The notes under the pieces are model-generated. The model was not told the DNA's origin. It made no database searches and saw only the letters and a list, made by a program, of their open reading frames with translations. The position numbers and the translations under genes were made by a program. This document shows, one piece after another, positions 4,047 through 18,824 of a stretch of DNA of 64,000 bases. The stretch covers positions 62,001 to 126,000 of the forward strand of contig CACIKF010000003.1 in NCBI GenBank assembly GCA_902587165.1, read 5' to 3'. The stretch is from Puniceicoccaceae bacterium (GTDB lineage: Bacteria; Verrucomicrobiota; Verrucomicrobiia; Opitutales; Coraliomargaritaceae). Every line of letters begins with the position of its first letter. The first letter of the stretch is position 1.

Positions 4047-4868
4047 GTGAAAGTATTTTCCTCAAAAGAGCATCTTTTTCTCTTCTATTTGATACTACTT
4101 TTTACGAATTTTCAGTTATCAGCGGTCGAGATACTCGTCAAAGCCACCGCTCGCGATAATTACTTTCGACCTATCAAATCAGATGGAGAGTATGTAGAGG
4201 AAAGTTATACCTTCTGCAAAGGAAAATACTACCCCTACGAATACGAGAAACCTGAAGATGCTATCCGATTCGAAGAAGTAGCCTTCGCACTCAAAGAAGA
4301 ACTGACCAAGAAAAACTACGTCAATGCAGATGATCCCATGGAGGCAGACTGTATTTTCGTGGTTCATTGGGGACAAACTAATTCCAGAGCTGAGGATGAC
4401 TCTTACACAGAGTTTTCTGATGATTCTGACGATTCCTTTGATCTACTCTCAGTCTTGGATGAATACGAAGCGGAAAGTAAATCGAAGGAGAACGCCAAGA
4501 TTATCGGAGCCGCTGGACTCTACGAAATGCACGTTTATTCACTCAAACGACAGCAACTGGAGGAAGCGAGCCGCCATGATCGCTATTTTGTAAATGTAGT
4601 GGCTCTTTCAATTGATGAAATTCGCAAACGCCCAGAAGGGGCAAAAATGCCAATTCCACTGTGGACACTACAACTCAGCCTCCCAGCAGGTCGTGCTGAG
4701 CCTGAAGAAGCCTTCGGCACCTTAGCTAAAACCGCAGGCCTTTACTCTGGTGAAAATCTGGTTAATGCGGACTTCATTCGGGAAAAGGAAAAACGAGGCA
4801 TTGTTCGCATCGGCAAACTTGAATTCATCGAGACTATCGAGGATAGCAATATCGAGTCTAAAGAATAA
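4047..4868 (+). CDS. Secreted protein of unknown function
   Basis: A 273-residue protein I do not recognise. The only reasonable start is the GTG at 4047. Residues ~8-27 form a hydrophobic signal segment (LFLFYLILLFTNFQLSA) with likely cleavage after SA, so the mature protein should be exported. The mature part starts with a possible strand EILVKATARDNYFRP. It contains a motif-like stretch ADCIFVVHWG (~residues 99-108), then a very acidic Asp/Ser/Glu-rich linker (~113-150), and ends in a helical Glu/Lys-rich tail. There are few cysteines and no lipobox. Base composition looks more AT-rich than pnp. It directly precedes the GH1 relic and may mark the edge of the accessory glycan region, but nothing links it functionally to that region. 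Confidence 0.7.
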   Translation: MKVFSSKEHLFLFYLILLFTNFQLSAVEILVKATARDNYFRPIKSDGEYVEESYTFCKGKYYPYEYEKPEDAIRFEEVAFALKEELTKKNYVNADDPMEADCIFVVHWGQTNSRAEDDSYTEFSDDSDDSFDLLSVLDEYEAESKSKENAKIIGAAGLYEMHVYSLKRQQLEEASRHDRYFVNVVALSIDEIRKRPEGAKMPIPLWTLQLSLPAGRAEPEEAFGTLAKTAGLYSGENLVNADFIREKEKRGIVRIGKLEFIETIEDSNIESKE

Positions 4869-5136
4869 AGTAGGTCTACGTATGAATCACCGGACGCCAT
4901 ACCCGCGGATCGATTTCTACACTGCCTACCTGAAGCAACTTAAACGTACGATGGATGAAGGCGTAGACGCGGTCGGTTACTAGGCCTTGTCGCTCATGAA
5001 CAAATTACGATGTGCGCAAGGCTTCCGCGTAGGTTTCGGCCTCATTCATGTTGATATGGAGACGGATAAGCACACTTTAAAAGACTCCGCCAAATAGTAT
5101 TGTAATCTCATCGCAACCAACGGCTCAGAACTCTAA
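4869..5136 (+). pseudogene. GH1 beta-glucosidase, C-terminal relic
   Basis: In one frame (phase of the ATG at 4882) the translation follows the last ~85 residues of glycoside hydrolase family 1. It reads RIDFYTAYLKQLKRTMDEG, then VDAVGY, a TAG stop at 4981-4983, then ALSLMNKL, AQGFRVGFGLIHVD, ETDKHTLKDSAK, a second TAG at 5095-5097, then YCNLIATNGSEL and a TAA at 5134. The family pattern is RIDYLxxHL...GYFxWSLLDNFEWxxGYxxRFGLVYVDYxTQxRxxKDSxxWY. The second TAG sits where Trp is expected, and the aglycone-side motif WSLLDNFEW has decayed to LSLMNKLRC. No frameshift is needed. The N-terminal ~350 residues, including both catalytic Glu residues, are gone. It lies 9 bases before the sugar transporter, so an intact glucosidase probably once headed that operon. 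Confidence 0.85.
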
Positions 5137-5145
5137 AAATTTTCC

Positions 5146-6978
5146 ATGTCCTACGCCCCACACACCGTCGCTCCACAGGATCGCATTTCCTGGCCACGCC
5201 TGCTGGCCTACGGCAGTGGCGGTATCATCCCAATTGCGTTGTTTAACATTGCAGGGCAGCTGATGGGCTTAATTGGTAATATCGGCTTAGGGCTGAGCGC
5301 GTTCTGGCTCGGTGTGATACTGATTTTCCCACGGCTTTGGGATGCAGTATCTGACCCCATAATTGGACATCTCTCGGACAACACCCGCACGCGCTGGGGA
5401 CGGCGACGTCCATATATATTTGCCGGTGGTCTTTTAGTTCTAATCAGCTTCGCTGGTATGTGGTGGGTACCTGAAGGCATTGGTGAGTGGGGACAACTCG
5501 CGTTCATTTTTACTGCATTATTAATTTTCTTCACAGCGTGCACGATGTTTGAGATCCCACACGGGGCACTCGGCATGGAGATGTCAAAAGATCCACACGA
5601 GCGCACCCGCTTATTTAGTTCTAAGAGCTTCTTTGGGAACCTTTTTGCAATGGGTACTCCATGGCTACTATATTTAGCAGGAATGGAAGTGGTTCGAGGC
5701 ACCGGAGGCACCTTAGTCGACGGCATGCGCTACCTTTCTCTGATTATTTCGATCATAATGCTCCCTATCATATTTTGGTGGTTTTTTGCAGTACGCGAAC
5801 CTTGCTACACTTTTACCCAAAATCAGCAACAAACACAGTTCTGGAGCAATATGAAGTTAGCACTTCGCAACAAGACTTTCCTCTGTCTTGTGCTCGTAAT
5901 ATTTACATTAGCAATAGGCTTCAACTTCGTTTCCATTTTCAACTATTACATATCAATTTACTACCTTTATGGTGGTGACCAATATGCAGCTGGCGCACTT
6001 CTTGGCATCAATGGCACCGTATGGGCAGTTACTGGATTAATCGCAGTCTTTCCACTTAATTGGATCAGTCCTCGAATCGGCAAGCGCAGGACTATGCTAT
6101 TATCTATCGGGCTTATGTGCCTAGCACAGCTATCTAAAGTCGTCTGTTATAATCCAGATTACCCCTACCTAATCATCATTCCTACCATTCTGTTGTCTGC
6201 GGGTATGCTAATGTTTTTTACACTCGGAGCCTCGATGCTAGGAGACATTTGCGACGAAGATGAGCTAAAAACTGGCACACGCTCTGAGGGAAGTTATTAT
6301 TCTGTCTACTGGTGGTTTATTAAGATGGGTACTGCATTCGCTAGCTTTGTCACAGGAGCACTGCTGATGGCAACTCAGTTCAACGAGACTCAAAGCCAGC
6401 AAGCTGCTAAATTATACGCTTGCTACGAAGTAGCACTGAAAGACTCCAGAACTTGGGCTTATGAAGGGGAGCCTGAAGACGCTAAAAATAAGAAAGAGCG
6501 ACTCGAGCTTTGGATCAATCAACTCCTAGGAAAAACGAAGGATCTCTCCATAAAAACGACTACGCAGGAGCGCTTGTTTAGATTCAAAGCACAGATGAAT
6601 GAGTCTCTTAAGCAGGCAAAAAAATTCGAAGATACTGTACTCATTTCTAGCGATAAAGGTATGGAAGATACTACTCATAGTAAGCAGCTAAGAAGCACAC
6701 TCCTTAAGGTCATTGAAGAGACCGAATCACTTCAAAAAAGGGCTACAGAAGTAGTAAATAAGCCGAATGTTCTTTATAGCAGCATTGAAAATCTCCTGCA
6801 TAGATCCACTGCGCTCTCGGCACAAAAACCGCGCACATTATTCCTATTACGTATTATCGAGATTGGACTCCCCTTGTTCCTTAGCCTAGTCTCAATTGTA
6901 TTCACACTACTTTACCCACTCAGCGACAAGCGATGCTATGAAATCAAGGAAAAGCTCGATACACTTAAACAAATATAA
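5146..6978 (+). CDS. Sugar:cation symporter, GPH/MelB type (MFS), with a large insertion
   Basis: Inner-membrane transporter expected to import a glycoside with Na+ or H+. The first ~410 residues carry the glycoside-pentoside-hexuronide pattern: about 11 hydrophobic segments, the loop 2-3 motif DAVSDPIIGHLSD followed by NTRTRWGRRRPYIF, and a later GDICDEDELKTGTRSEG between helices 10 and 11. The total of 610 residues is well above the usual 430-500. The excess is a hydrophilic, helical, Lys/Glu-rich stretch (~411-560) placed between predicted helices 11 and 12, before a final membrane segment (LPLFLSLVSIVFTLLYPL). The esterase gene follows after 11 bases, so they are probably co-transcribed. 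In context it should take up the oligosaccharides released by the GH144 enzyme; that substrate is inferred. Confidence 0.88.
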   Translation: MSYAPHTVAPQDRISWPRLLAYGSGGIIPIALFNIAGQLMGLIGNIGLGLSAFWLGVILIFPRLWDAVSDPIIGHLSDNTRTRWGRRRPYIFAGGLLVLISFAGMWWVPEGIGEWGQLAFIFTALLIFFTACTMFEIPHGALGMEMSKDPHERTRLFSSKSFFGNLFAMGTPWLLYLAGMEVVRGTGGTLVDGMRYLSLIISIIMLPIIFWWFFAVREPCYTFTQNQQQTQFWSNMKLALRNKTFLCLVLVIFTLAIGFNFVSIFNYYISIYYLYGGDQYAAGALLGINGTVWAVTGLIAVFPLNWISPRIGKRRTMLLSIGLMCLAQLSKVVCYNPDYPYLIIIPTILLSAGMLMFFTLGASMLGDICDEDELKTGTRSEGSYYSVYWWFIKMGTAFASFVTGALLMATQFNETQSQQAAKLYACYEVALKDSRTWAYEGEPEDAKNKKERLELWINQLLGKTKDLSIKTTTQERLFRFKAQMNESLKQAKKFEDTVLISSDKGMEDTTHSKQLRSTLLKVIEETESLQKRATEVVNKPNVLYSSIENLLHRSTALSAQKPRTLFLLRIIEIGLPLFLSLVSIVFTLLYPLSDKRCYEIKEKLDTLKQI

Positions 6979-6989
6979 ACTAACTCTTT

Positions 6990-9185
6990 ATGAAAAATGT
7001 TAGGCATCATATTTTTATTCGCTTACTAGGAATACTGATCAGCACCTTAGTATTCATAAATCTAGAGCTATCAGCCCAATCTAGTGAGAGGCTAATTAAC
7101 GGCGATTTTGAGATTGGTATTCCGACCATAGATAAATCTCCTTCTTTTAACTGCAAAGGATGGCGCCGGCAAATATGGAGGGAAGGTAATTTCAACTCAT
7201 GGCTAACTGATGCTAAGTTAGATCCCAGAATAGGCAGAGATAACCAAGCCCTACAATTTCGTTGGGGAGCTACGACTATTCATCAATTCTTTAGCGCGCG
7301 CGCCCGTAGCAACTATAAGTTCGGTGTGGATACCTTAAATACTGGTGACATAAAAAGTGCTTGGAACCCACGTATTAGTGTTCAATGGTTCAACTCAGAC
7401 TACCAAGCCATCGGTAATCCAGTCGTGATCGATGAGGCCGATGTAACAAAGTCACCAATAAAAACATGGCATCGCCTAGAAGGTTTTGCAGACGCGCCAG
7501 ATAACACCGCTTATGGACAATTTATCATTGAAATAAATAAGCGTAAAGAAGGTGCTTATTTTCAAGCAACATTCTTTGATAACGCATCTGTGATCGGGCA
7601 GGATGGAAGTGCAAACCGACCACCCTCCTTTATTAGTAGCCCTTACTCACTACAATTAGACAGTATCCCCGAGTCTACAATCCATGAAGACAGCTTACTT
7701 AAATATGCTGACGATCTTGATCAAGACCCACTCAAATTTACATTAATAAAAGGTCCTAAATGGTTACAAATCGACCCATCTGGTGCGATGCGAGCGCACC
7801 CCGGAATCGCCGATGTAGGAAATCATCTAATAACTGTAAAAGTCGACGACCAGCGTGGCGGCACCGATACTCAGTCGCTGCTAATCGAAGTCATCGGTCA
7901 CCTACGCCTAGCTAATCTCTTCGACGATGAAATGGTGCTACAGCGTGACGAACTCATACCAGTATGGGGGCAAGCTTTGCCCAACATGGAAGTGACAGTT
8001 TTCATTGGCAGTGGGTTTCAAGCACAGACTAAATCTGATGCCGCAGGGAATTGGAAAGTGCAAATGCCGGCTATGCCAGCGACTCGACAGGGTGCCACAA
8101 CACTCACAGTCACAAGCGGCCCTAGAAGATTGCACTTTTCTAACATTCTTATTGGCGATGTTTGGATGTGTTCAGGACAATCAAATATGGCATGGGCACT
8201 TAAAAACACCGATAATTTGGTTGCCGCGACTGCTGCGGCCAAACACCCGAACCTGCGCATTGTGAAAACGCCCGATACCGCTAGTAACACAAGGTGGAGT
8301 GAGCTTAACGAGCGAGCTAATTGGCAAGTCGCAGGACCAGATAGTATCAAAGACTTCTCTGCAGTCGCCTACTACTTTGGTAAAGGGCTACTTAGCGAAG
8401 GCATTCCCATAGGCTTGATCAATTCTAGCCAGGGTGGCTCTCGTATTGAATCTTGGACTGCATCACTGCCGAGCTCTAAAAAGAAAACCTTCTTCAATTC
8501 GCGTATTATGCCCTATACATATATGCCAATTACTGGCGCAATTTGGTATCAAGGTGAGTCCAATATTAAGGATGGCGCAGCCTATACAGATAAAATGCTC
8601 AAACTTGTTAATAGTTGGCGAGATGCGTGGAACCGAAATTCAGAGCAACTTCCTTTTTATTTTGTTCAGCTAGCTCCATTTAAATACAAGCACGGTAATG
8701 ACGAATTACTCCCAGAGTTTTGGATCGCACAAGCTGCCGCAGAGGAGCTAATCCCTAACACCGCTATGGCTGTCATTAACGATATCGGAAACCTGGGTGA
8801 TATCCACCCACGCAACAAAGCGCCTGTTGGGAAACGCCTCGGACTACTTGCCAAACACAACACTTACGGCCATCAGGATTCAATCGCTCATAGCCCCAAG
8901 CCTGAATCTGTCGAAACAAGTGGAAAGTATCTGCGCGTTAGCTTTTCCCACACTGGCACAGGCCTTTCTACCCGCGACGGCACAGTTCCAAAAGGGTTCG
9001 AACTCGCAGGGATAGATGGGAAGTTTGCCAAGGCATTCGCTGAAATTAAGGACCATACCGTCGTCTTAAACGCACCGTTAATTCAAAATCCGGCACATGT
9101 CCGTTTTGCATGGAATGCGGCAACCCAAGCGAACCTTGTAAATAGTGCAGGACTACCAATTAGCGCATTCAAATTATCAAAATAA
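6990..9185 (+). CDS. Secreted sialate O-acetylesterase-like esterase with N-terminal accessory domains
   Basis: A 731-residue exported hydrolase expected to remove acetyl groups from glycans. A signal segment (IRLLGILISTLVFINLELSA) is followed by a beta-rich module beginning RLINGDFEIG and running to ~residue 210, resembling the jelly-roll carbohydrate-binding type. Then comes a cadherin/Ig-like module (DDLDQDPLKFTLIKGPKWL ... VDDQRGGTDTQSLLIEV, ~225-305). The SASA/GDSL-like catalytic domain follows with its diagnostic blocks: CSGQSNMAW (nucleophile Ser near 397), SSQGGSRIESW, WYQGESN, and a C-terminal DIGNLGDIHPRNK that supplies the Asp/His pair. Despite the family name, the substrate need not be sialic acid; Verrucomicrobiota and Bacteroidota use this fold on many acetylated polysaccharides. 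It sits between the transporter (11-base gap) and the GH144 enzyme. Confidence 0.88.
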   Translation: MKNVRHHIFIRLLGILISTLVFINLELSAQSSERLINGDFEIGIPTIDKSPSFNCKGWRRQIWREGNFNSWLTDAKLDPRIGRDNQALQFRWGATTIHQFFSARARSNYKFGVDTLNTGDIKSAWNPRISVQWFNSDYQAIGNPVVIDEADVTKSPIKTWHRLEGFADAPDNTAYGQFIIEINKRKEGAYFQATFFDNASVIGQDGSANRPPSFISSPYSLQLDSIPESTIHEDSLLKYADDLDQDPLKFTLIKGPKWLQIDPSGAMRAHPGIADVGNHLITVKVDDQRGGTDTQSLLIEVIGHLRLANLFDDEMVLQRDELIPVWGQALPNMEVTVFIGSGFQAQTKSDAAGNWKVQMPAMPATRQGATTLTVTSGPRRLHFSNILIGDVWMCSGQSNMAWALKNTDNLVAATAAAKHPNLRIVKTPDTASNTRWSELNERANWQVAGPDSIKDFSAVAYYFGKGLLSEGIPIGLINSSQGGSRIESWTASLPSSKKKTFFNSRIMPYTYMPITGAIWYQGESNIKDGAAYTDKMLKLVNSWRDAWNRNSEQLPFYFVQLAPFKYKHGNDELLPEFWIAQAAAEELIPNTAMAVINDIGNLGDIHPRNKAPVGKRLGLLAKHNTYGHQDSIAHSPKPESVETSGKYLRVSFSHTGTGLSTRDGTVPKGFELAGIDGKFAKAFAEIKDHTVVLNAPLIQNPAHVRFAWNAATQANLVNSAGLPISAFKLSK

Positions 9186-9247
9186 CATAGCATTTAAATT
9201 CCTACCTGGCTCTCTATCTCTACTAACACTCTGCCAAACTTATCCTA

Positions 9248-10864
9248 ATGCCTGTTGTGCGTAAACTTTCGTTCTTATTACTAGCTTTTCTGCTACTACC
9301 CCCGTGTATCAACAGTAGCTATGCTAAGCCATCGGTTAAAAAAACTATAGAACTTGAAGCCTTACCGCGCATGTTGCGTGTGGACTTAATATGGCCTAAT
9401 ATGGGCGAAGGATTGCACTACGATGTAGAGCGCGCACAAAAAAAGAACGGTCCCTTTTCGCGACTGGAGCACATCACACCGACAGTGCACCTATTCTCGG
9501 ACTATATTGGGGAGGCAGGCATCACTTATCACTACCGTGTGCGATGTTTTAATCCGACAAACGGACTGACTAGCGCATGGTCTACCACCGCAAGTGCAAC
9601 AAGCTCAGAATTTGAGTGTAAGGGCTTCTTGACCGAAGTTCAAGAGGCAGGCTTTCGTTACTTTTACAATTATGCTTATCCAGGCAGCCATCTACCTCGC
9701 GAGGGTATAAAGGCAAAAAATTCCTGGCATCCAAAACTCATGTCAGTGGTATCCACAGGGATGTATTTCTTCAATATTGCAGTCGGAATTGAACGTGGCT
9801 TCATCTCTCGAGCAGAAGGTTCGGCTCACGTCGAAATATTACTTAATTTCTTACATGAGCGAGTTGAACGTTTTTATGGAGCATACCCACATTGGATTGA
9901 TGGCGCCAGTGGAAAGGTGCGTCCCTTCTCAAACACCGATAATGGTGCGGACTTGGTCGAGAGCGGCATCGTTGCAGAGGGACTGATCTTCGCGCGTGAA
10001 TATTTTAGCCAAGACACTACCACTGAATCCAATATAAGGAAAGTTTCAGATAAACTTTGGAAAGAAATACAGTGGGATAAATTTATACAAAACCCGCAAA
10101 CTCCAGACCAAGTCTTAATTTGGCATTGGTCGCCTGACCACGGCTTCAGTGATTTACCTATCGTTGGATTTAATGAAGCAGAGATCTGCTACATTCTTGG
10201 CGCCGGCTCCCCCACCTTTGCCATTGATCCAGAAATTTATTGGGACGGCTGGGTCGCTAAGAATACTGATTACTACAACTCTCGAACAGTAGAAGGTGTA
10301 AATGGTCCAATCGATCTACTGCTAAACCACGAGTACGGGATTCCTATGTTCGTTATGCATTACTCCTATCTAGGCTTAGACCCACATAAAATCCCACTAA
10401 AAGATGGTAATCTCTTTGACGAGTTCACGAAGCTCACTCTAGCAAATCACGACTACGCTCAGCTGAATCCGAATGGTTTCGAAGGCTACGGAAAATATTG
10501 GGGACTTACCGCCAGCCTCGGTCCAGACGGATATAGCGCACACGAGCCAGTGCACAATGATAACGGTACAATCGCACCGACAGGTGCAATTTCGTCGATC
10601 GCCTATTTACCAGAGCCAGTAATTGATATGATGTCTGAGCTCTACCTTAATAAAGGCGATGAGTTGTGGGGACCTTTTGGATTCTATGACTCATTTAATG
10701 TTAGCCGTAATTGGAACGCACAAGGTTACATCGGCATTGATGTTGGTCCTATCGCACCGATGATTGAGAATTATCGCACCGGTAAACTATGGGATACGTT
10801 TATGAAAGCACCAGAAGTGATCAGTGCTATACAGAAAATTTGGAGTCATCCAAAAGCTCACTAA
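9248..10864 (+). CDS. GH144-type glucanase (probable endo-beta-1,2-glucanase)
   Basis: A 538-residue secreted enzyme. A signal peptide (LSFLLLAFLLLPPCINSSYA) is followed by a fibronectin III-like domain (~40-118, ending YHYRVRCFNPTNGLTSAW). The (alpha/alpha)6 domain of the Pfam Glycoamylase family carries its landmarks: GFLTEVQEAGFRYFYNYA, VSTGMYFFNIAVGIERGFISR, ESGIVAEGLIFAREYF, IWHWSPDHGFSDLPIVGFNEAE, LGAGSPTFAI, YWGLTASLGPDGYSAH and NDNGTIAPTGAISSI. GH144 founding members hydrolyse linear beta-1,2-glucan to sophoro-oligosaccharides. I rest the specificity on family resemblance plus the presence of a long GH94 phosphorylase nearby, not on identified catalytic residues. It is the last gene of the rightward cluster and converges on the sulfatase gene. 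Confidence 0.8.
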   Translation: MPVVRKLSFLLLAFLLLPPCINSSYAKPSVKKTIELEALPRMLRVDLIWPNMGEGLHYDVERAQKKNGPFSRLEHITPTVHLFSDYIGEAGITYHYRVRCFNPTNGLTSAWSTTASATSSEFECKGFLTEVQEAGFRYFYNYAYPGSHLPREGIKAKNSWHPKLMSVVSTGMYFFNIAVGIERGFISRAEGSAHVEILLNFLHERVERFYGAYPHWIDGASGKVRPFSNTDNGADLVESGIVAEGLIFAREYFSQDTTTESNIRKVSDKLWKEIQWDKFIQNPQTPDQVLIWHWSPDHGFSDLPIVGFNEAEICYILGAGSPTFAIDPEIYWDGWVAKNTDYYNSRTVEGVNGPIDLLLNHEYGIPMFVMHYSYLGLDPHKIPLKDGNLFDEFTKLTLANHDYAQLNPNGFEGYGKYWGLTASLGPDGYSAHEPVHNDNGTIAPTGAISSIAYLPEPVIDMMSELYLNKGDELWGPFGFYDSFNVSRNWNAQGYIGIDVGPIAPMIENYRTGKLWDTFMKAPEVISAIQKIWSHPKAH

Positions 10865-10890
10865 TTTCAGCTACTAAATAATAAAATACT

Positions 10891-12492
10891 CTAATCTACG
10901 ACCTCGTATTGATCTCGTAGCTTACTGAGTTCGTGCTGCATTTCCTCTAATACCGATGCGTATTCTGGATTTGCATACACAGATTGCTGCTCCGTGGGAT
11001 CTTTTTGTAGATCGAACAACTCCCATTGTTCACCAAAATCAAATTTCTTATGATCGTAGTATCGTACTAACTTATATCGATCACTGCGAGTAGCTTCGAT
11101 CTTAGGTAAATTATAGGCTCCATTATGATAGTAGTGATAATAGATCGAGTCACGCCATTCATCCAGCTTGTGCCCTTTTAAAATTGGAAGCAAAGATTTA
11201 CCATCCATATCCGCAGGCACCTCAATACCCGCCACATCAAGTAAAGTAGGCGCATAATCAATATTTTGAACCATCGCATCGATTCGCTGACCTGATGCTA
11301 CTACTCCTGGCCAACGGATTAAAAACGGCATCGACATCGTCACATCATCAGCGAGGCGCTTGTCCGTAAAACCGTTCTCACCAAGAAAGAACCCTTGATC
11401 AGAACTATAAATTACAATAGTATTATCATCGAGACCATTCTTTTCCAAATATTCAAGTAAGCGTCCAACGTTTTGGTCAATCGCAGCTACGCAGCGCAGA
11501 TAGTCTTTCATATAACGCTGATACGGGAACTCATCCTGCTCTTTCTGGGAAATCTCTCCCTCTGCTAAGCGACGCGCATACTCTTCATTAATGGGGTCAT
11601 AGTGCGCATGCCACTGCGCCAACTCTTCTTCAGTCATGTAGGCATAAAACCCAGGCAGCCCTATCCTCTGAGCACGCTCTTTCTGCATCTCCCCAGCTGG
11701 CAAATCATAGGTTCCTGCTTCTGGGCCTGTTTTAATAACATCTTCAGACTTCATACCACTCATTTGCATCCAAGTTTTGCTCAGATATCTACTGCGTCCA
11801 CTATGGTCACTATGGTAACTATCAGGTACTGGAATGTCGGCATCCTTAAACAAATTCAGATTACGAAGCGGCGGCATCACATTGGTATGGGGCGACTTAA
11901 ACTGGCACATCATTAAAAATGGCTTCGATGCATCACGCCCCTGCATCCATTCGATCGACTCTGTAGTAATGATATCAGTCGAGTAGCCTCGCTCCATAAC
12001 CGTATCACCTTCGTAGGTAACAAAATGTGGATTGTAGTAACGGCCCTGACCACCATGACCGGTTAGTGTCTTGTGGTAATCGAATTCATCGGAAGGATAA
12101 GGATGCATATGCCATTTTCCTATCATCGCAGTCTGGTAACCAGCCTCGCTGAGCATACGTGTAAATATAGGCTGCTCGGGATCCCAATTCGAGCCATTGG
12201 TCATCACACCATGTTTGTGAGAATGCTTACCAGTTAAGATAGACGCACGGCTAGGCTGGCAAATTGAATTCCCACAAAAGCTACGCGTGAAAATCGCTCC
12301 CTCATTAGCCAAGCGATCGATATTTGGCGTCTGATTTACATCACTTCCTTTTGCATATGCACTAATAGTACGTAGTGCATGATCATCGCTAAATATAATC
12401 AAAATGTTTGGTTCATCAAACTTTGCTAAAAGCCCAAGTGGTAGGGCACTGGTTACTAGCAGAGCACGGAATATGGTATTGAATGTTAGCAT
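10891..12492 (-). CDS. Secreted sulfatase (formylglycine type)
   Basis: A 533-residue member of the alkaline phosphatase-like sulfatase superfamily. An N-terminal signal segment (IFRALLVTSALPLGLLA) precedes NILIIFSDDHA with the metal-binding Asp pair. The maturation motif Cys78-Gln-Pro-Ser-Arg82, followed by ASILTGKHSHKHGV, is the CxPSR type converted to formylglycine. Later blocks fit metal and substrate binding: IGKWHMH, FKSPHTN and IVIYSSDQGFFLGENG. It needs a formylglycine-generating enzyme or anSME, neither of which is in the window. The start lies 26 bases after the end of the GH94 gene on the same strand, so the two are probably co-transcribed. The substrate is unknown; context suggests a sulfated glycan. 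Some superfamily members act on phosphate esters instead. Confidence 0.88.
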   Translation of the reverse strand: MLTFNTIFRALLVTSALPLGLLAKFDEPNILIIFSDDHALRTISAYAKGSDVNQTPNIDRLANEGAIFTRSFCGNSICQPSRASILTGKHSHKHGVMTNGSNWDPEQPIFTRMLSEAGYQTAMIGKWHMHPYPSDEFDYHKTLTGHGGQGRYYNPHFVTYEGDTVMERGYSTDIITTESIEWMQGRDASKPFLMMCQFKSPHTNVMPPLRNLNLFKDADIPVPDSYHSDHSGRSRYLSKTWMQMSGMKSEDVIKTGPEAGTYDLPAGEMQKERAQRIGLPGFYAYMTEEELAQWHAHYDPINEEYARRLAEGEISQKEQDEFPYQRYMKDYLRCVAAIDQNVGRLLEYLEKNGLDDNTIVIYSSDQGFFLGENGFTDKRLADDVTMSMPFLIRWPGVVASGQRIDAMVQNIDYAPTLLDVAGIEVPADMDGKSLLPILKGHKLDEWRDSIYYHYYHNGAYNLPKIEATRSDRYKLVRYYDHKKFDFGEQWELFDLQKDPTEQQSVYANPEYASVLEEMQHELSKLRDQYEVVD

Positions 12493-12518
12493 ATGGAAGA
12501 AAGCTTACATAATTAAAA

Positions 12519-15500
12519 TCACAAGTAAACGATCAGATACGGATCACTTGCTAAAGCTGCCACCAAGTCTACCTTCTTTACAATAAGACCTCCAGTGCGA
12601 TATGGATTCGCTTCACGCCCAGCTAGTAAACTCTGCCCAGCGCATTCAACTAACTCAGGCCCAGAGCTATTCTTTGAGAGCTGATATTTTATCTCGACGG
12701 GCTTCCCGCACAACTCCCAATTAAGAACAATCCCATTTAGTTCTAAAGCTAAAACCGGATCAAAAATCCATGAATCCCTATTTTCACGTAAGCCAAAAAA
12801 ATGACGGATCACCAGGCCGAAATACAAGCCCGGACCACTTGAATATAACCGCCAACCTCCCTTAACATTGATAGATCCATCTTTGAGCTTATCAAAATTC
12901 TCCGCGGCATCAGCACGGTCGAGGAAGGCCGCATCAGAGCTACTAAAATACATGTTGCTTTGGCGCATCTCTGCATTTGGAACTGTCTTTTCGAGGCCGA
13001 TCGGGCAAATCGTCATAAGCGCCTTTAAAAAGCCATCACCCTCACCCATCTTTGCTAGTGCCTCTGCATATCGGATGTGCGCGTGCACATACTGAAGGCC
13101 GATTTCACGGCCAAAATTAGCTGCGGATTCTGCGCGTTTAAAGAATGTTTCTATACCCCCGCAATACGCTGCTGGCTTATCCATTAAACGTACACCGTCA
13201 GGGTATTTCAGATTACTTGCGATGCGCTCCATCTGATCATCTGCCTCCTCGCGAGTTAGCAGTCCAGCAATGACCGAGCGTGTCATTGGTATCAAACGAT
13301 TCTTTATACCAGTGCGAGTATCATTGGAGTGCAGCAGCGGTTCGACGATTTCTAGTGCCTCATCATAAAGTAAAAATCCAGCTACTTGCCCATCGATCAA
13401 AACATGACGGCGAAAGTCAATCCGCACACGCTCTGAGAGCGTAACAATCCGCCTCTTCAAATCCGAATTGGTCAGCAATGAACCTAGTTCTTCCAGCGAT
13501 TGCGCCAGTAGTGCGACCGTCCAACCACTGACCATACGATTAGCTAGCCCAGAATTCACTGGTTGCAAGGAATCATTCCAATCGCCCCCACCATACCGGA
13601 TAAGTGCCGTCCCCGCAATAAACTCATGTTCGATACGGTCGAGCGCCTTCAAAATGTGATCCGAAACTGTTCCCTGCTCTGCAGCAGGCTTATTTTTAGC
13701 CGTTAAATAAGGTAGCTTCTCGGTGAGTATTGCGAGATCTCCGGTTGTTTGTAAATAAAGCGCAAGAGCCTTTAATGGCCACACCACGATGTCACCATGG
13801 GAATGATTTTGCGCGATATCAGAATATTCGTCATGCATGAACCACTGTGGCCAGTCACCAGTCTCCACATATTGACTACCGAATGTCTTCAGCAAAATGC
13901 TACGCGCCAGACTGTGATGTTGTTGCGCGATAAAATATTCAAACGGCCCCTGGCAAGCATCACGCGTGCCCCATGCGGCCCCAGAATGCTGCTCCAATCC
14001 ATGTGGCGAGGCATAATGAATCAACGCATTGTGCGAATACCAACGCAGCGCATCACTCAAGCGCGACACAGACTCCACATCACTCGAGCAATCAAAGCGA
14101 CGATTAAAATCAGTCCAGTAATCCGAATCTACAGCAGTCCTCTGAGCCTTCAACTTGTCCACCACACTGGCCCTACCTAGCAACGAAGCAAGAATCGTCA
14201 ATTCTATCGATTGCGTCGCCGCCGTCTGCAAAACCAGCATCCCATCGCCCCCTGCTGCGCCGAGCAGTTCAGAACCGCCCACCTTCGCGACATGCGTGTT
14301 CTCAGTCCAACTCACCCCAAAGGCAAGATCCAAACTACGTTCTTTCGGCAAAACGTTCGAACAATCCGCAATCGTTAGCAAGCAGTCCGATTCATGAATC
14401 TCCAATGCCGCATTTGAATCCGTTTCCGTAGCCCCCATCACGAGCTCATTACTCACGAGGAAACAGCGTTTTGCTCCTGTGGTGCTAGCACTGATCGTAA
14501 AAGCGTCACGCCCACTATCAAGCGCTACACGCACAGTGATCGTCTCCTGATCCAATACGTAGACCCAACGACACGCATCGCGTGTCATCTCGAAAACCGA
14601 GGGTGTGCCGAGGACTTGCCAGCCATCCTCCGTTTCAAAGTAGATGCGCACTCCAGATACTCGTGACAAACCCAGAGGCTCACGTGGCAATGAGTTCATC
14701 TTATGAAAGGAGGTATTCCCATAGACCGTTTGCGCAGAGAACACGCCACACATATGCACCGTAGTCGCCAACACCTCACGTATCGAATCGGTGCCCGCAT
14801 CGCCAACAATAATAGTACCGTGTGGGCGCTCAATAATCGCCTCCTTAGCACGGGTCACTACGTGTTTGTCGGTATCGCAAAAGAAACTCATCACAATACC
14901 CTGACGGTTCTCAACGTGACGCCATTTCGATGGAAACAAAGCTTGCAGCTCCGGCTGACTCAAGTCGCGACCGTGCACAGGCTCGGACTGAGCAATTTGA
15001 TTTAAAGCAGGTAAAGACTGAACCTCTAGCGAGTCACAAATAGACTGCCCTGAAAGCGCATGCATGCCCTTCAGCAAACTCAGATCTGCGGCCGAAGATG
15101 CCTCTGGATGATCCGCCACATATGCCGCAGCAAAACTGAATTGTGCAGATTGCTTCGCAACCAATTCAACTGGCTTCGCCTGCAAGGCCGCACAACTAAA
15201 CTCGTATTGATAACAACAATTCGCGAGACTCTCTTGCTCTAATCCAGAAGCGCCCTCCCCGCAACGGTAACCGTTGCCATACACATCAAATGCATCGGTC
15301 GCATAACTTGCGGCACCTGTTAGACAAACAGCCATCATCCATGGATTCTTACCTGCTTGCTGTAAATTCTGACGAAAGCTCAAGACTGGTCCATAGGTAG
15401 CATCCTGAATGACTGACTCATCCAAATAATGCGCCGTGTAAGCCTCATTACTCAACAATGCCCCACGAGACGCCAGCCCGACATCTTGAACCCAGACCGT

Positions 15501-15896
15501 ATCGATACGAACAGGCTCAGCTGACTGATTGACCGCCGAAACATCCCACAATAAAGTCGCGGCCTCGACATCGACCCGCAGCGATAAAGTAATCGCACAA
15601 CCAGCCACATCACCCACCCACTGAGCGAGATTCTCTTTACACGCAAAACCCGATAGGCTCGTAAACGTCCCCAAGAGCGGGTGCAGCTTGATTGCATCAC
15701 CAATATGCACGCGAAAAAACATGCGCCCTAGGCCCCCTTCAAGTGGGTTGCCTAAAGTTCGGCTGAGTAGAATATCACCCGCCGAAGCAGATGAGACCTG
15801 ACCGTTGCGATTGAGTTGTACACAAAATCGATCTACATCTCCTAGAGTATACTCATATCCTGCATGAGTTGAAAGTAGAAGTTTTTGAATTAACAT
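12519..15896 (-). CDS. GH94 phosphorylase, probable 1,2-beta-oligoglucan phosphorylase
   Basis: Large GH94-type protein with no signal peptide, so cytoplasmic. It has an N-terminal beta-sandwich region (HAGYEYTLGDVDRFCVQLN; GNPLEGGLGRMFFRVH) and a C-terminal (alpha/alpha)6 domain. The general-acid block is GGGDWNDSLQPVN, with its first Asp at ~772 counted from the chosen start. WGTRDACQGPFEYF marks the entry of the catalytic domain. The length of ~1,125 residues matches 1,2-beta-oligoglucan phosphorylases rather than the ~800-residue cellobiose or cellodextrin enzymes. The reaction would release glucose 1-phosphate from sophoro-oligosaccharides. I chose ATG 15896 (MLIQKLLLSTHAG); an in-frame ATG 17 codons upstream (15947) is possible. 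The gene is followed after 26 bases by a sulfatase. Specificity is inferred from size, motifs and the GH144 neighbour. Confidence 0.78.
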   Translation of the reverse strand: MLIQKLLLSTHAGYEYTLGDVDRFCVQLNRNGQVSSASAGDILLSRTLGNPLEGGLGRMFFRVHIGDAIKLHPLLGTFTSLSGFACKENLAQWVGDVAGCAITLSLRVDVEAATLLWDVSAVNQSAEPVRIDTVWVQDVGLASRGALLSNEAYTAHYLDESVIQDATYGPVLSFRQNLQQAGKNPWMMAVCLTGAASYATDAFDVYGNGYRCGEGASGLEQESLANCCYQYEFSCAALQAKPVELVAKQSAQFSFAAAYVADHPEASSAADLSLLKGMHALSGQSICDSLEVQSLPALNQIAQSEPVHGRDLSQPELQALFPSKWRHVENRQGIVMSFFCDTDKHVVTRAKEAIIERPHGTIIVGDAGTDSIREVLATTVHMCGVFSAQTVYGNTSFHKMNSLPREPLGLSRVSGVRIYFETEDGWQVLGTPSVFEMTRDACRWVYVLDQETITVRVALDSGRDAFTISASTTGAKRCFLVSNELVMGATETDSNAALEIHESDCLLTIADCSNVLPKERSLDLAFGVSWTENTHVAKVGGSELLGAAGGDGMLVLQTAATQSIELTILASLLGRASVVDKLKAQRTAVDSDYWTDFNRRFDCSSDVESVSRLSDALRWYSHNALIHYASPHGLEQHSGAAWGTRDACQGPFEYFIAQQHHSLARSILLKTFGSQYVETGDWPQWFMHDEYSDIAQNHSHGDIVVWPLKALALYLQTTGDLAILTEKLPYLTAKNKPAAEQGTVSDHILKALDRIEHEFIAGTALIRYGGGDWNDSLQPVNSGLANRMVSGWTVALLAQSLEELGSLLTNSDLKRRIVTLSERVRIDFRRHVLIDGQVAGFLLYDEALEIVEPLLHSNDTRTGIKNRLIPMTRSVIAGLLTREEADDQMERIASNLKYPDGVRLMDKPAAYCGGIETFFKRAESAANFGREIGLQYVHAHIRYAEALAKMGEGDGFLKALMTICPIGLEKTVPNAEMRQSNMYFSSSDAAFLDRADAAENFDKLKDGSINVKGGWRLYSSGPGLYFGLVIRHFFGLRENRDSWIFDPVLALELNGIVLNWELCGKPVEIKYQLSKNSSGPELVECAGQSLLAGREANPYRTGGLIVKKVDLVAALASDPYLIVYL

Positions 15897-16079
15897 GGCT
15901 CTAAAATGTAATATTTGAATTGCGAGTAAAGTTCTTGTCTTAAACATTCTGAATTACACTTATCAACTCACCCTAGAACGAGCGCATGCCGTTGATCCCA
16001 CAGATTAAAAACCGCAGGCAAATCAACGCGCTGCCGATAATCAGGAGAAGAATATTTCACCGACTGAACCAGAAAAGCA

Positions 16080-17273
16080 ATGAATACTCCCAAATTACTA
16101 AAAACACTCCTAGCACTCATACTGCTCAGTCAAGTAATTACGAAGTCCTTAACAGCAGATAGTAATGACTTAGCCCCCGTAGTAACAGACCTGAACTCAG
16201 CCAATGTTTCCTACAGTCTAGAAGCCAAGCTGCCAGACCTTGCAGAGGCCTATATCAGCAGCTCACCGACCGACATGCAGGACGGCATCCCAGTCGGAAC
16301 TCTCGCCGATGGCAACGTCGACCAAGACCGCATCCTGCAATACGCCAACGCAATCGCCGCAGGCAAGTTCGACGTCACCGACAGCCTGTTGATCATGCAC
16401 AAAGATAAGCTCATATTTGAGTCCTACTACAGACGAGGACGCGAAAATTACCCACACTACCAGATGTCGATCACTAAGTCCTACACGGCCTTAGCCATCG
16501 GACGTGCCATTCAGCTCGGCTATTTAAGCATGGCTGATTTAGACAAACCAGTCGTCAGCTTTCTCAAAGACATTAATCAAAGTAAACTCGTTGCTGGTGC
16601 CGACCAAATCACTCTCGCACAAGCGATGAACATGAAGTCTGGCATTCGCATTGATAAAGCGAAAGCACGTGAGCTTATGAAGCAACCTGCGCAACTCAAA
16701 GGACAAGGCCAGATCGAAGCCTACATGACACACAGTTTACCCATCCCTACAGCTCCTCGAGAATTCAAATACCAAGGCTCTGATCCTTCGATGACAATGC
16801 AAGTGCTCGAAGCCGTCGTGCCTGGTTCAGCAAAAGACTTTATCTGCGATCAGTTACTCAAGCCCATGGGTATCACCAACTATGCATGGAGGGCAGACAT
16901 CAGCGGACTGCCAAAATCTGGAGCAGGCAGTAGTTTCCGCTCACGTGACATGTTAAAATTCGGTATGCTCGTCTCGGATAATGGCCAATGGCACGGACAA
17001 CAACTCATTCCATCAGATTACATTCAACAAGCAACCAGTCGTATTAATACGAACAAACAGGGCACCAATTCCTACGGCTACTTCTGGTGGCGCGCAGGCA
17101 TGCAAGTCGATGGAAAGAGCTACGATTGTAAATCAGGTCGCGGTGCGGGCGGACAATTCATCCTCATACTACCCGAGCTAGATCTAATCATCGTCACGAC
17201 TGCTCACAATAAAGGCATGGGCAAGACCCTAGCCAATACGTCGATACACTTACTGCCCGCATTCGTTCAGTAG
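16080..17273 (+). CDS. Secreted serine hydrolase, beta-lactamase/transpeptidase fold
   Basis: A 397-residue protein of the class C beta-lactamase/DD-peptidase-like family (Pfam Beta-lactamase), probably periplasmic. It has a signal peptide (LLKTLLALILLSQVITKSLTA). The active-site SxxK is Ser130-Ile-Thr-Lys133 in QMSITKSYTALAIGRAIQLG, and a YQGSDPS segment stands where the Tyr motif falls. A C-terminal GRGAGGQFILILPELDLIIVTTAH region matches the last strand of the 6-aminohexanoate-oligomer hydrolase subgroup. These proteins are often esterases or amidases rather than true beta-lactamases. It is divergent from GH94 across 183 bases and ~100 bases before the second sulfatase. In this setting a deacylation role on a glycan is plausible but unproven. 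Confidence 0.85.
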   Translation: MNTPKLLKTLLALILLSQVITKSLTADSNDLAPVVTDLNSANVSYSLEAKLPDLAEAYISSSPTDMQDGIPVGTLADGNVDQDRILQYANAIAAGKFDVTDSLLIMHKDKLIFESYYRRGRENYPHYQMSITKSYTALAIGRAIQLGYLSMADLDKPVVSFLKDINQSKLVAGADQITLAQAMNMKSGIRIDKAKARELMKQPAQLKGQGQIEAYMTHSLPIPTAPREFKYQGSDPSMTMQVLEAVVPGSAKDFICDQLLKPMGITNYAWRADISGLPKSGAGSSFRSRDMLKFGMLVSDNGQWHGQQLIPSDYIQQATSRINTNKQGTNSYGYFWWRAGMQVDGKSYDCKSGRGAGGQFILILPELDLIIVTTAHNKGMGKTLANTSIHLLPAFVQ

Positions 17274-17372
17274 CAGAAACAGGCAGAAATATCATCACAC
17301 GCAGCAACGAACACGTATTAACGACGCCCCCATCAGCACAGGCATATTAATCACTGTAAATATTCTAGCATC

Positions 17373-18824
17373 ATGAAAACGAAACATGCCTCCAAATTAC
17401 ATTTAGCCCAATGGCTACTTATTAGCCTACTTCTATGCATGAGCACATATGCTGCCCGTCAACCGAACTTCGTGCTCATCATGGCTGACGACCTAGGTTA
17501 CAGTGATGTCGGCTACCAAGGCAGTGATGTGCCCACTCCCAACATCGATTCGATCGCCGCAGGCGGTGTGCGTATCACAGATGGCTATGTTACCTGCCCC
17601 GTCTGCGCCCCTTCTCGCGCTGGCATGCTCACTGGGCGTTACCAACAAAGCTTTGGGTTCTGGGATAACACAGGCCCATACCGACTCAACAAAGACGTTG
17701 AGCCAGGCGTCCCCACCGACCTGGCGATCATCTCCGAACGCCTCAAAGAACTTGGTTACACCACAGGTCTATTCGGCAAGACACACGATGGAACCGCAGA
17801 AGCAATGATGCCATTCAATCGCTGGGATGATTACTACGGCTTCAACAACGGTGCATCCAATTTCCTCGGCGACATGAACCGCAAGCACAACCCAATCTTT
17901 CGTAACAAGACAATCGACAGTAATTTCTACGAAGACCGCGGCATTAACAAAAACACGGTGATCAAAAAGGGCGTCATTCAGCGTGATAGTGAGAACTATC
18001 TAACCGACCAACTCGGCGACCATGCTGCACGCTTCATTAGTGAAAACAAAGACCGCCCCTTCCTCTGCTACGTGCCATTCAATGCGATCCATGGCCCCTT
18101 TCAAGCGACCAAAGAAACATTCGCCAAATACGCCGATCAGCCCGACCACAAACGCGCACTCGTCATGGCCATGCTTGACTCCATGGACGCCAACATTGGT
18201 AAAGTCTTGAAAGCACTCAAAGACAATCAACTGATGCATGATACTATCATCATCTTCCTTAGCGACAACGGCGGTCACGAAGCCTCACCCAACGACCCCC
18301 TACGCGGCAAGAAAGGCACCTTTTGGGAAGGCGGCCTTCGCGTACCGTTCTGCATACAGTGGGAGGGAAAATTAGCTCCAGGCAGCATCTACACAAAACC
18401 CATTATTTCGTTAGATATTATGCCAACAATGATTGAAGCAGCAGGCGGTACGGTCAAGGCAGACTGGAAACTCGACGGCGTGAACATCCTGCCCTATATC
18501 AGCGGTCGCAACCTAGAGGCACCACACGAAGTACTCTATTGGGTTTGGGGCCCGCGCAAAGCGATACGTATGGGCGACTATAAAGCCGTCAGTATGAACA
18601 ACGGGAAAAACTTCGAACTCTACAACTTGGCCCAAGATATCAGCGAATCAACCGACTTATCACGGCAGCACCCTGAGAAACTAGAAAACATGACTCAGCA
18701 ACATGCTAAGTGGGAATCCACACTCATGCCACAGCAATGGGGCTGGAATAGCAAACTCGGCACCAAAGACCCAAATTTCGGCAAACCAGAGCCCTACCAC
18801 GATCCAAAATATCGGATCAAATAA
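17373..18824 (+). CDS. Secreted sulfatase (formylglycine type), second copy
   Basis: A 483-residue arylsulfatase-like enzyme. A signal peptide (LLISLLLCMSTYAA) runs into PNFVLIMADDLGYSDVGYQG, the classic N-terminal metal site. The maturation motif is Cys78-Ala-Pro-Ser-Arg82, followed by AGMLTGRYQQSFGF. Further blocks are TTGLFGKTHDG, VPFNAIHGPFQ and IIIFLSDNGGHEASPNDPLRGKKGTFWEGGLRVPF; the last is typical of exo-acting S1 sulfatases. It differs clearly from the other sulfatase in this region, so the two are not recent duplicates. It follows the serine hydrolase gene on the same strand and needs an unlinked maturase. The substrate is unknown. Confidence 0.9.
   Translation: MKTKHASKLHLAQWLLISLLLCMSTYAARQPNFVLIMADDLGYSDVGYQGSDVPTPNIDSIAAGGVRITDGYVTCPVCAPSRAGMLTGRYQQSFGFWDNTGPYRLNKDVEPGVPTDLAIISERLKELGYTTGLFGKTHDGTAEAMMPFNRWDDYYGFNNGASNFLGDMNRKHNPIFRNKTIDSNFYEDRGINKNTVIKKGVIQRDSENYLTDQLGDHAARFISENKDRPFLCYVPFNAIHGPFQATKETFAKYADQPDHKRALVMAMLDSMDANIGKVLKALKDNQLMHDTIIIFLSDNGGHEASPNDPLRGKKGTFWEGGLRVPFCIQWEGKLAPGSIYTKPIISLDIMPTMIEAAGGTVKADWKLDGVNILPYISGRNLEAPHEVLYWVWGPRKAIRMGDYKAVSMNNGKNFELYNLAQDISESTDLSRQHPEKLENMTQQHAKWESTLMPQQWGWNSKLGTKDPNFGKPEPYHDPKYRIK

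Follow-up and report, generated by a model that had tools for sequence, protein, structure and literature searches.

A gene cluster in a verrucomicrobial genome very probably encodes the catabolism of beta-1,2-glucan. It spans positions 4906-18824 of the window, the 64,000-nucleotide stretch of DNA analyzed here, which is part of the 240 kb contig C3 of a 1.85 Mb, 79%-complete verrucomicrobial assembly (G000) that we surveyed one family at a time; the bacterium is probably marine. The identities of the genes, the active-site residues that they conserve, their synteny in related genomes and purifying selection carry this reading, and from these we infer the substrate, the order of the steps, their localization and the GH1 enzyme that replaces a lost local one. 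A sequence-only reading of this DNA had proposed the same pathway, and it is supported by a GH94 protein of the SOGP type, by a GH144 protein that keeps the key residues of the characterized enzyme CpSGL, and by the pairing of the two kinds of gene at 16 of 26 other loci.

The plus-strand block begins with the relic of a GH1 beta-glucosidase (4906-5133), 12 bp ahead of a GPH-family sugar:cation symporter of 610 aa (5146-6978; PF13347, E 9e-71). Next come a secreted SASA-type carbohydrate esterase of 731 aa (6990-9185; PF03629, E 1e-20), whose gene is kept between GPH and GH144 in the related genome G038, and a secreted GH144 of 538 aa, predicted to be a beta-1,2-glucanase (9248-10864; PF10091, E 8e-62). 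On the minus strand, the SOGP-type GH94 gene (12519-15896) is followed by a secreted S1 sulfatase, SULF1 (10891-12492). The gaps are short (11-62 bp inside the plus block, 26 bp from SOGP to SULF1), so the genes likely form two convergent operons. Past the GH94 gene lie a LacI-type regulator relic (16001-16090, minus strand) and, on the plus strand, a secreted serine beta-lactamase-family protein that is a possible esterase (16080-17273; PF00144, E 2e-17), with a syntenic orthologue (62%) in G036, and a second secreted S1 sulfatase, SULF2, which is S1_19/carrageenan-sulfatase-like (17373-18824). Secretion of the SASA esterase, GH144 and the sulfatases is predicted from hydrophobic N-termini, judged by eye. 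Profile matches and ORFs confirm the five elements that the sequence-only reading had named (GPH, SASA, GH144, GH94 and the GH1 relic), at the positions it gave, but it had omitted SULF1 from within its own interval; the LacI relic, the beta-lactamase-family gene and SULF2 lie just outside that interval. It was also correct that the locus has no SusC/SusD pair, as none is found among window ORFs 4047-18824. The four PF00593 receptors of G000 all lie outside the locus, and a TonB plug-domain receptor adjoins SOGP in some Opitutales but not here; that the cluster holds no outer-membrane importer counts against our main reading.

The GH94 ORF runs from 15947 to 12519, and a start at 15896 gives a protein of 1,125 aa, equal in length to its homologue in G017. 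A profile search places PF21958, PF21250, PF17167 and PF21270 over cut-off (SOGP_N, SOGP_2nd and SOGP_4th among the matches), and the protein has the SOGP architecture of Ndom1 (SOGP_N), Ndom2, an (alpha/alpha)6 barrel and a C-terminal sheet domain. LpSOGP from Lachnoclostridium phytofermentans (5h3z), which shares these four domains and 35% identity, matches at E 9e-193 over residues 59-1138, whereas other solved GH94 phosphorylases, cellobiose phosphorylases included, reach E 2e-7 or weaker. Thirteen of the 14 substrate and catalytic residues of LpSOGP that we checked, with roles taken from PMC5309861, are identical in the window protein: N138, Y141, Q621, A626, R630, D631, W758, the catalytic D760, R907, R916, E917, Y922 and H924. 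The sole exception, which we count against the main reading, is G623 at subsite +2, a Ser here; Ser or Asn is common at this position in verrucomicrobial relatives. The window gene also differs from LpSOGP in its linked GH144 and sulfatase genes. Seven GH94 paralogues of the same family are about 19% identical and mostly different at the SOGP-specific positions: Y141 is replaced by W in most, Q621 by T in six of the seven, R907 by G, R916 by G or K, and Y922 by F. In the tree a long branch, about 3 substitutions per site, sets them apart, and its point of attachment is not informative. By domains, score, tree and residues the window GH94 is of the SOGP type, and its predicted activity is EC 2.4.1.333.

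The window GH144 matches CpSGL, BDI_3064 and three 'putative glucoamylase' structures at E 1e-90 to 1e-101. CpSGL, the GH144 endo-beta-1,2-glucanase of Chitinophaga pinensis (5gzh, E 6e-91; 5gzk is presumably CpSGL as well), is 39% identical over the catalytic domain, and the window protein carries an additional N-terminal domain of about 100 residues. BDI_3064, which we take to be an exo-type, sophorose-releasing GH144, scores as well as CpSGL, and we count this too against the main reading. Exo-acting GH144 enzymes exist, according to published work. The window GH144, about 40% identical to both, lacks the loop insertion of BDI_3064, as does CpSGL, and an endo rather than exo action is the likelier, if unproven, prediction. 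All four key acidic residues of CpSGL are conserved (D135, D139, E142 and the general acid E211; roles from PMC12102758), and in the tree the window protein clusters with verrucomicrobial sequences, sister to the solved structures. Some related loci carry a second GH144 type, GH144b (L017:15137-16894, L019:11968-13647), which is about 42% identical to the window's enzyme, has Gly at the CpSGL D135 position and adjoins SULF1; G036, which has lost SOGP, still carries it.

Together, these genes suggest a pathway in which the secreted GH144 would cleave beta-1,2-glucan to sophoro-oligosaccharides, while, outside the cytoplasm, the SASA esterase, and probably SULF1 and SULF2 as well, would strip off substituents. 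The GPH symporter would carry the sophoro-oligosaccharides across the inner membrane, and cytoplasmic SOGP, an enzyme that acts on a DP of at least 3 and leaves Sop2 (sophorose) (PMC5309861), would phosphorolyse chains of at least three glucoses to glucose 1-phosphate. The local GH1 that would hydrolyse sophorose is a relic, and so this step probably passes to the intact GH1 at G000:C11:15790-17178.

Conservation of the pairing across the phylum is consistent with this scheme. PF21958 is present in 27 of 388 genomes, and within 8 kb of SOGP at the 26 other loci we find GH144-type genes 16 times, LacI 8, GPH 7, GH1 3 and a sulfatase once; these counts are lower bounds, as contig ends cut several loci, and 'GH144-type' means PF10091-like by similarity to two GH144 proteins of the present study. 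G009 has SOGP and GH144 together with an intact GH1 adjacent to a GPH gene.

Part of the window locus has decayed. The GH1 relic retains the last 76 codons with two in-frame TAG, an incomplete ORF and hence no functional copy; PF00232 matches at 4900-5124 (E 4.5e-15), and identity is 67% over 76 aa to the intact G009 GH1, which is likewise located before GPH. A random ORF is ruled out by the intact GH1-GPH order in G009, and descent from the C11 GH1 is less likely, at 46% identity versus 67%. The G009 enzyme cannot be assigned to the beta-1,2-specific SGR_2426 type, as many generic GH1 enzymes score best, and a search upstream of GPH in G038 found no GH1 relic. The intact C11 gene adjoins another GPH gene, sulfatases and a GH5; the surrounding region (L028, G000:C11:8000-25000) is a second sugar cluster, with sulfatases, a GPH symporter, the intact GH1 and a GH5 with a CBM4_9 domain. 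No GH3 was found in the G000 assembly, which may lack about a fifth of the genome. The LacI relic keeps the C-terminal 30 residues, 47% identical over 30 aa to the SOGP-adjacent LacI of G017 (E 0.002 for the whole window, 1e-5 locally), and sits where LacI is found in G017, G036 and G009. Loss of GH1 and LacI may mean that the pathway is curtailed or runs constitutively, and we count this loss against the main reading. In G036, a member of the same genus, all that is left of SOGP (L019:10010-10317, on G036:C3) is about 100 C-terminal codons, stops among them, and LacI, SULF1 and GH144b are intact around it. Relics of GH1 and LacI here, and of SOGP in G036, show that the locus is eroding. Near the partial clusters of G036 (L019:13806-14954) and G038 (L092:17229-18377) stand phage-integrase-family genes that share an N-terminus, a hint that these loci may have been rearranged by a mobile element.

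Every gene that survives has an intact ORF, and the extant genes are under purifying selection. By a Nei-Gojobori-type method, limited to pairs with measurable dS, dN/dS is 0.08-0.34 for SOGP, 0.10-0.16 for SULF1, 0.16-0.26 for GH144, 0.17 for SASA, 0.11 for GPH (versus G038) and 0.10 for SULF2, with the top values coming from nearly identical pairs with few substitutions. Against G017, dS is saturated or nearly so, and the retained adjacency of SOGP and SULF1 is therefore informative.

Two readings would set the main one aside. The GH94 could be a cellobiose, cellodextrin or other non-beta-1,2 phosphorylase with a GH144 neighbor by coincidence: SOGP and cellobiose phosphorylases both belong to GH94, and one distant plasmid-borne match is annotated 'cellobiose phosphorylase'. 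The plasmid collection yielded short, distant matches only. We consider this reading extremely improbable, as the domain architecture, scores and diagnostic residues all counter it and the pairing with a GH144-type gene recurs. The grouping with cellobiose or cellodextrin phosphorylases, which the sequence-only reading had proposed to check, was not seen, and we reject a cellobiose-type enzyme on the scores, the residues and the presence of Ndom1. The other reading is that the locus is decaying and can no longer sustain growth of the G000 organism on beta-1,2-glucan. The GH1 and LacI relics, the SOGP relic of G036 and the absence of SOGP from most genomes of the genus all fit such a course, but the six large ORFs are intact and selected, SOGP included, and an intact GH1 exists elsewhere in G000, which makes this reading quite unlikely.

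A substituted glucan would extend the main reading, not replace it. Both sulfatases have the PF00884 domain and the S1 formylglycine motif C/S-x-P-S-R, as CQPSR in SULF1 and CAPSR in SULF2. Five genomes from two genera (G000, G035, G039, G017 and G036) have SULF1 next to SOGP or its relic, and SULF2 lies within the clusters of G000, G036 and G017, its orthologues in the latter two being 69-73% identical. Among the solved structures that score best with SULF1 (E about 1e-118 to 1e-113) are the S1_11 enzymes BT1628 and BT4656, 6-O-sulfatases on GlcNAc, whose locus tags we assume for the matched PDB entries. The nearest solved relatives of SULF2 are carrageenan sulfatases, 6prm being presumably of the S1_19 subfamily. 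S1_11 enzymes are exo 6-O-sulfatases that bind D-gluco/L-galacto sugars by a His/Asp/Arg triad (PMC10154612). SULF1 retains an Asp-Lys-Arg stretch that we take to be the O4-binding Asp/Arg of S1_11, but two His around the S1_11 substrate site, the candidates for binding O3, are changed, and its genomic partner is a glucan pathway instead of mucin or heparin.

It is possible, and we put this forward tentatively, that the locus serves a sulfated, perhaps acetylated, beta-1,2-glucan, and that SULF1 and SULF2 remove sulfate from the polymer, or from oligosaccharides derived from it, and so let GH144 and SOGP act. Consistent with this, SULF1 follows SOGP closely on the same strand, the adjacency of the two recurs as described, and the sulfatases and SASA make up a fully secreted set. 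The kinship of SULF1 to GlcNAc-6-sulfatases, its retained Asp-Lys-Arg stretch and the recurrence of SULF2 point the same way. G000 carries 62 PF00884 sulfatases, mostly in dense arrays on C1, C4, C11 and C15; C3 carries just two of these, both at the locus (P ~0.003 for two random placements on C3, a post-hoc figure). On the other hand, only 1 of the 26 other verrucomicrobial loci has a sulfatase near SOGP and G009 has none, the genus is rich in sulfatases, the two His are not kept in SULF1, and G036 retains SULF1 and GH144b without SOGP. Searches of the literature found no sulfated beta-1,2-glucan, and a published study of Puniceicoccaceae sulfatases mentions neither GH144, GH94 nor beta-1,2-glucan. 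The plain alternative is lineage-specific hitch-hiking of sulfatases in a sulfatase-rich genus. The suggestion of the sequence-only reading that the substrate might be acetylated or sulfated thus gains some genomic support from the conserved sulfatases and is otherwise unproven. We regard as rather doubtful the bolder proposal that a 6-O-sulfated (possibly also acetylated) marine beta-1,2-glucan exists, and that the first system for degrading it is the one found here and in the related loci of two genera, with S1_11-like and S1_19-like sulfatases inside an SOGP/GH144 pathway.

How beta-1,2-glucan is broken down is already established for Listeria, Bacteroidota and Actinobacteria. Listeria innocua Lin1839/1840/1841 likewise has SOGP as the central cytoplasmic step and an expected beta-glucosidase partner for sophorose, but uses an ABC transporter and a GH3, whereas the window locus has GPH, a secreted GH144, an esterase, sulfatases and, as local beta-glucosidase, a GH1 relic. 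Streptomyces griseus SGR_2422-2427 (GH1, GH193, an ABC transporter and a putative acetyl-esterase) similarly links a GH1 beta-glucosidase, a beta-1,2-glucanase and an esterase; no SOGP is named there, and the window locus has SOGP, GH144 and GPH instead. The pathway is known; its novelty here lies in the verrucomicrobial set of genes, in the sulfatases conserved with it and in an erosion whose stages can be seen across sister genomes. A verrucomicrobial, probably marine locus that combines a symporter with conserved sulfatases broadens the set of organisms credited with beta-1,2-glucan use, and suggests that beta-1,2-glucans with natural substituents, perhaps sulfate, are in circulation in the sea. 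The break-up of such a pathway can be followed through the related genomes: the regulator and terminal glucosidase are lost here, the phosphorylase in another lineage.

Two further groups of proteins stand beside SOGP in other genomes. At nine loci (L076, L077, L079, L080, L083, L084, L085, L087 and L088) the neighbors are PF10091-type proteins in which Asp replaces E142 and Ser replaces D139; they reach about 1,000 aa, and one has a CBM9-like domain. Keeping only E211 and an Asp for E142, they may represent a neighboring family of the beta-1,2-glucanase clan, whose families are described in PMC12102758. Directly downstream of SOGP at three loci lie proteins of about 1,260-1,270 aa (L067:4271-8089, L068:13053-16841 and L070:3364-7158); the one of the three that was tested, from L068, has no Pfam match, and these proteins are possibly a new component of SOGP loci.
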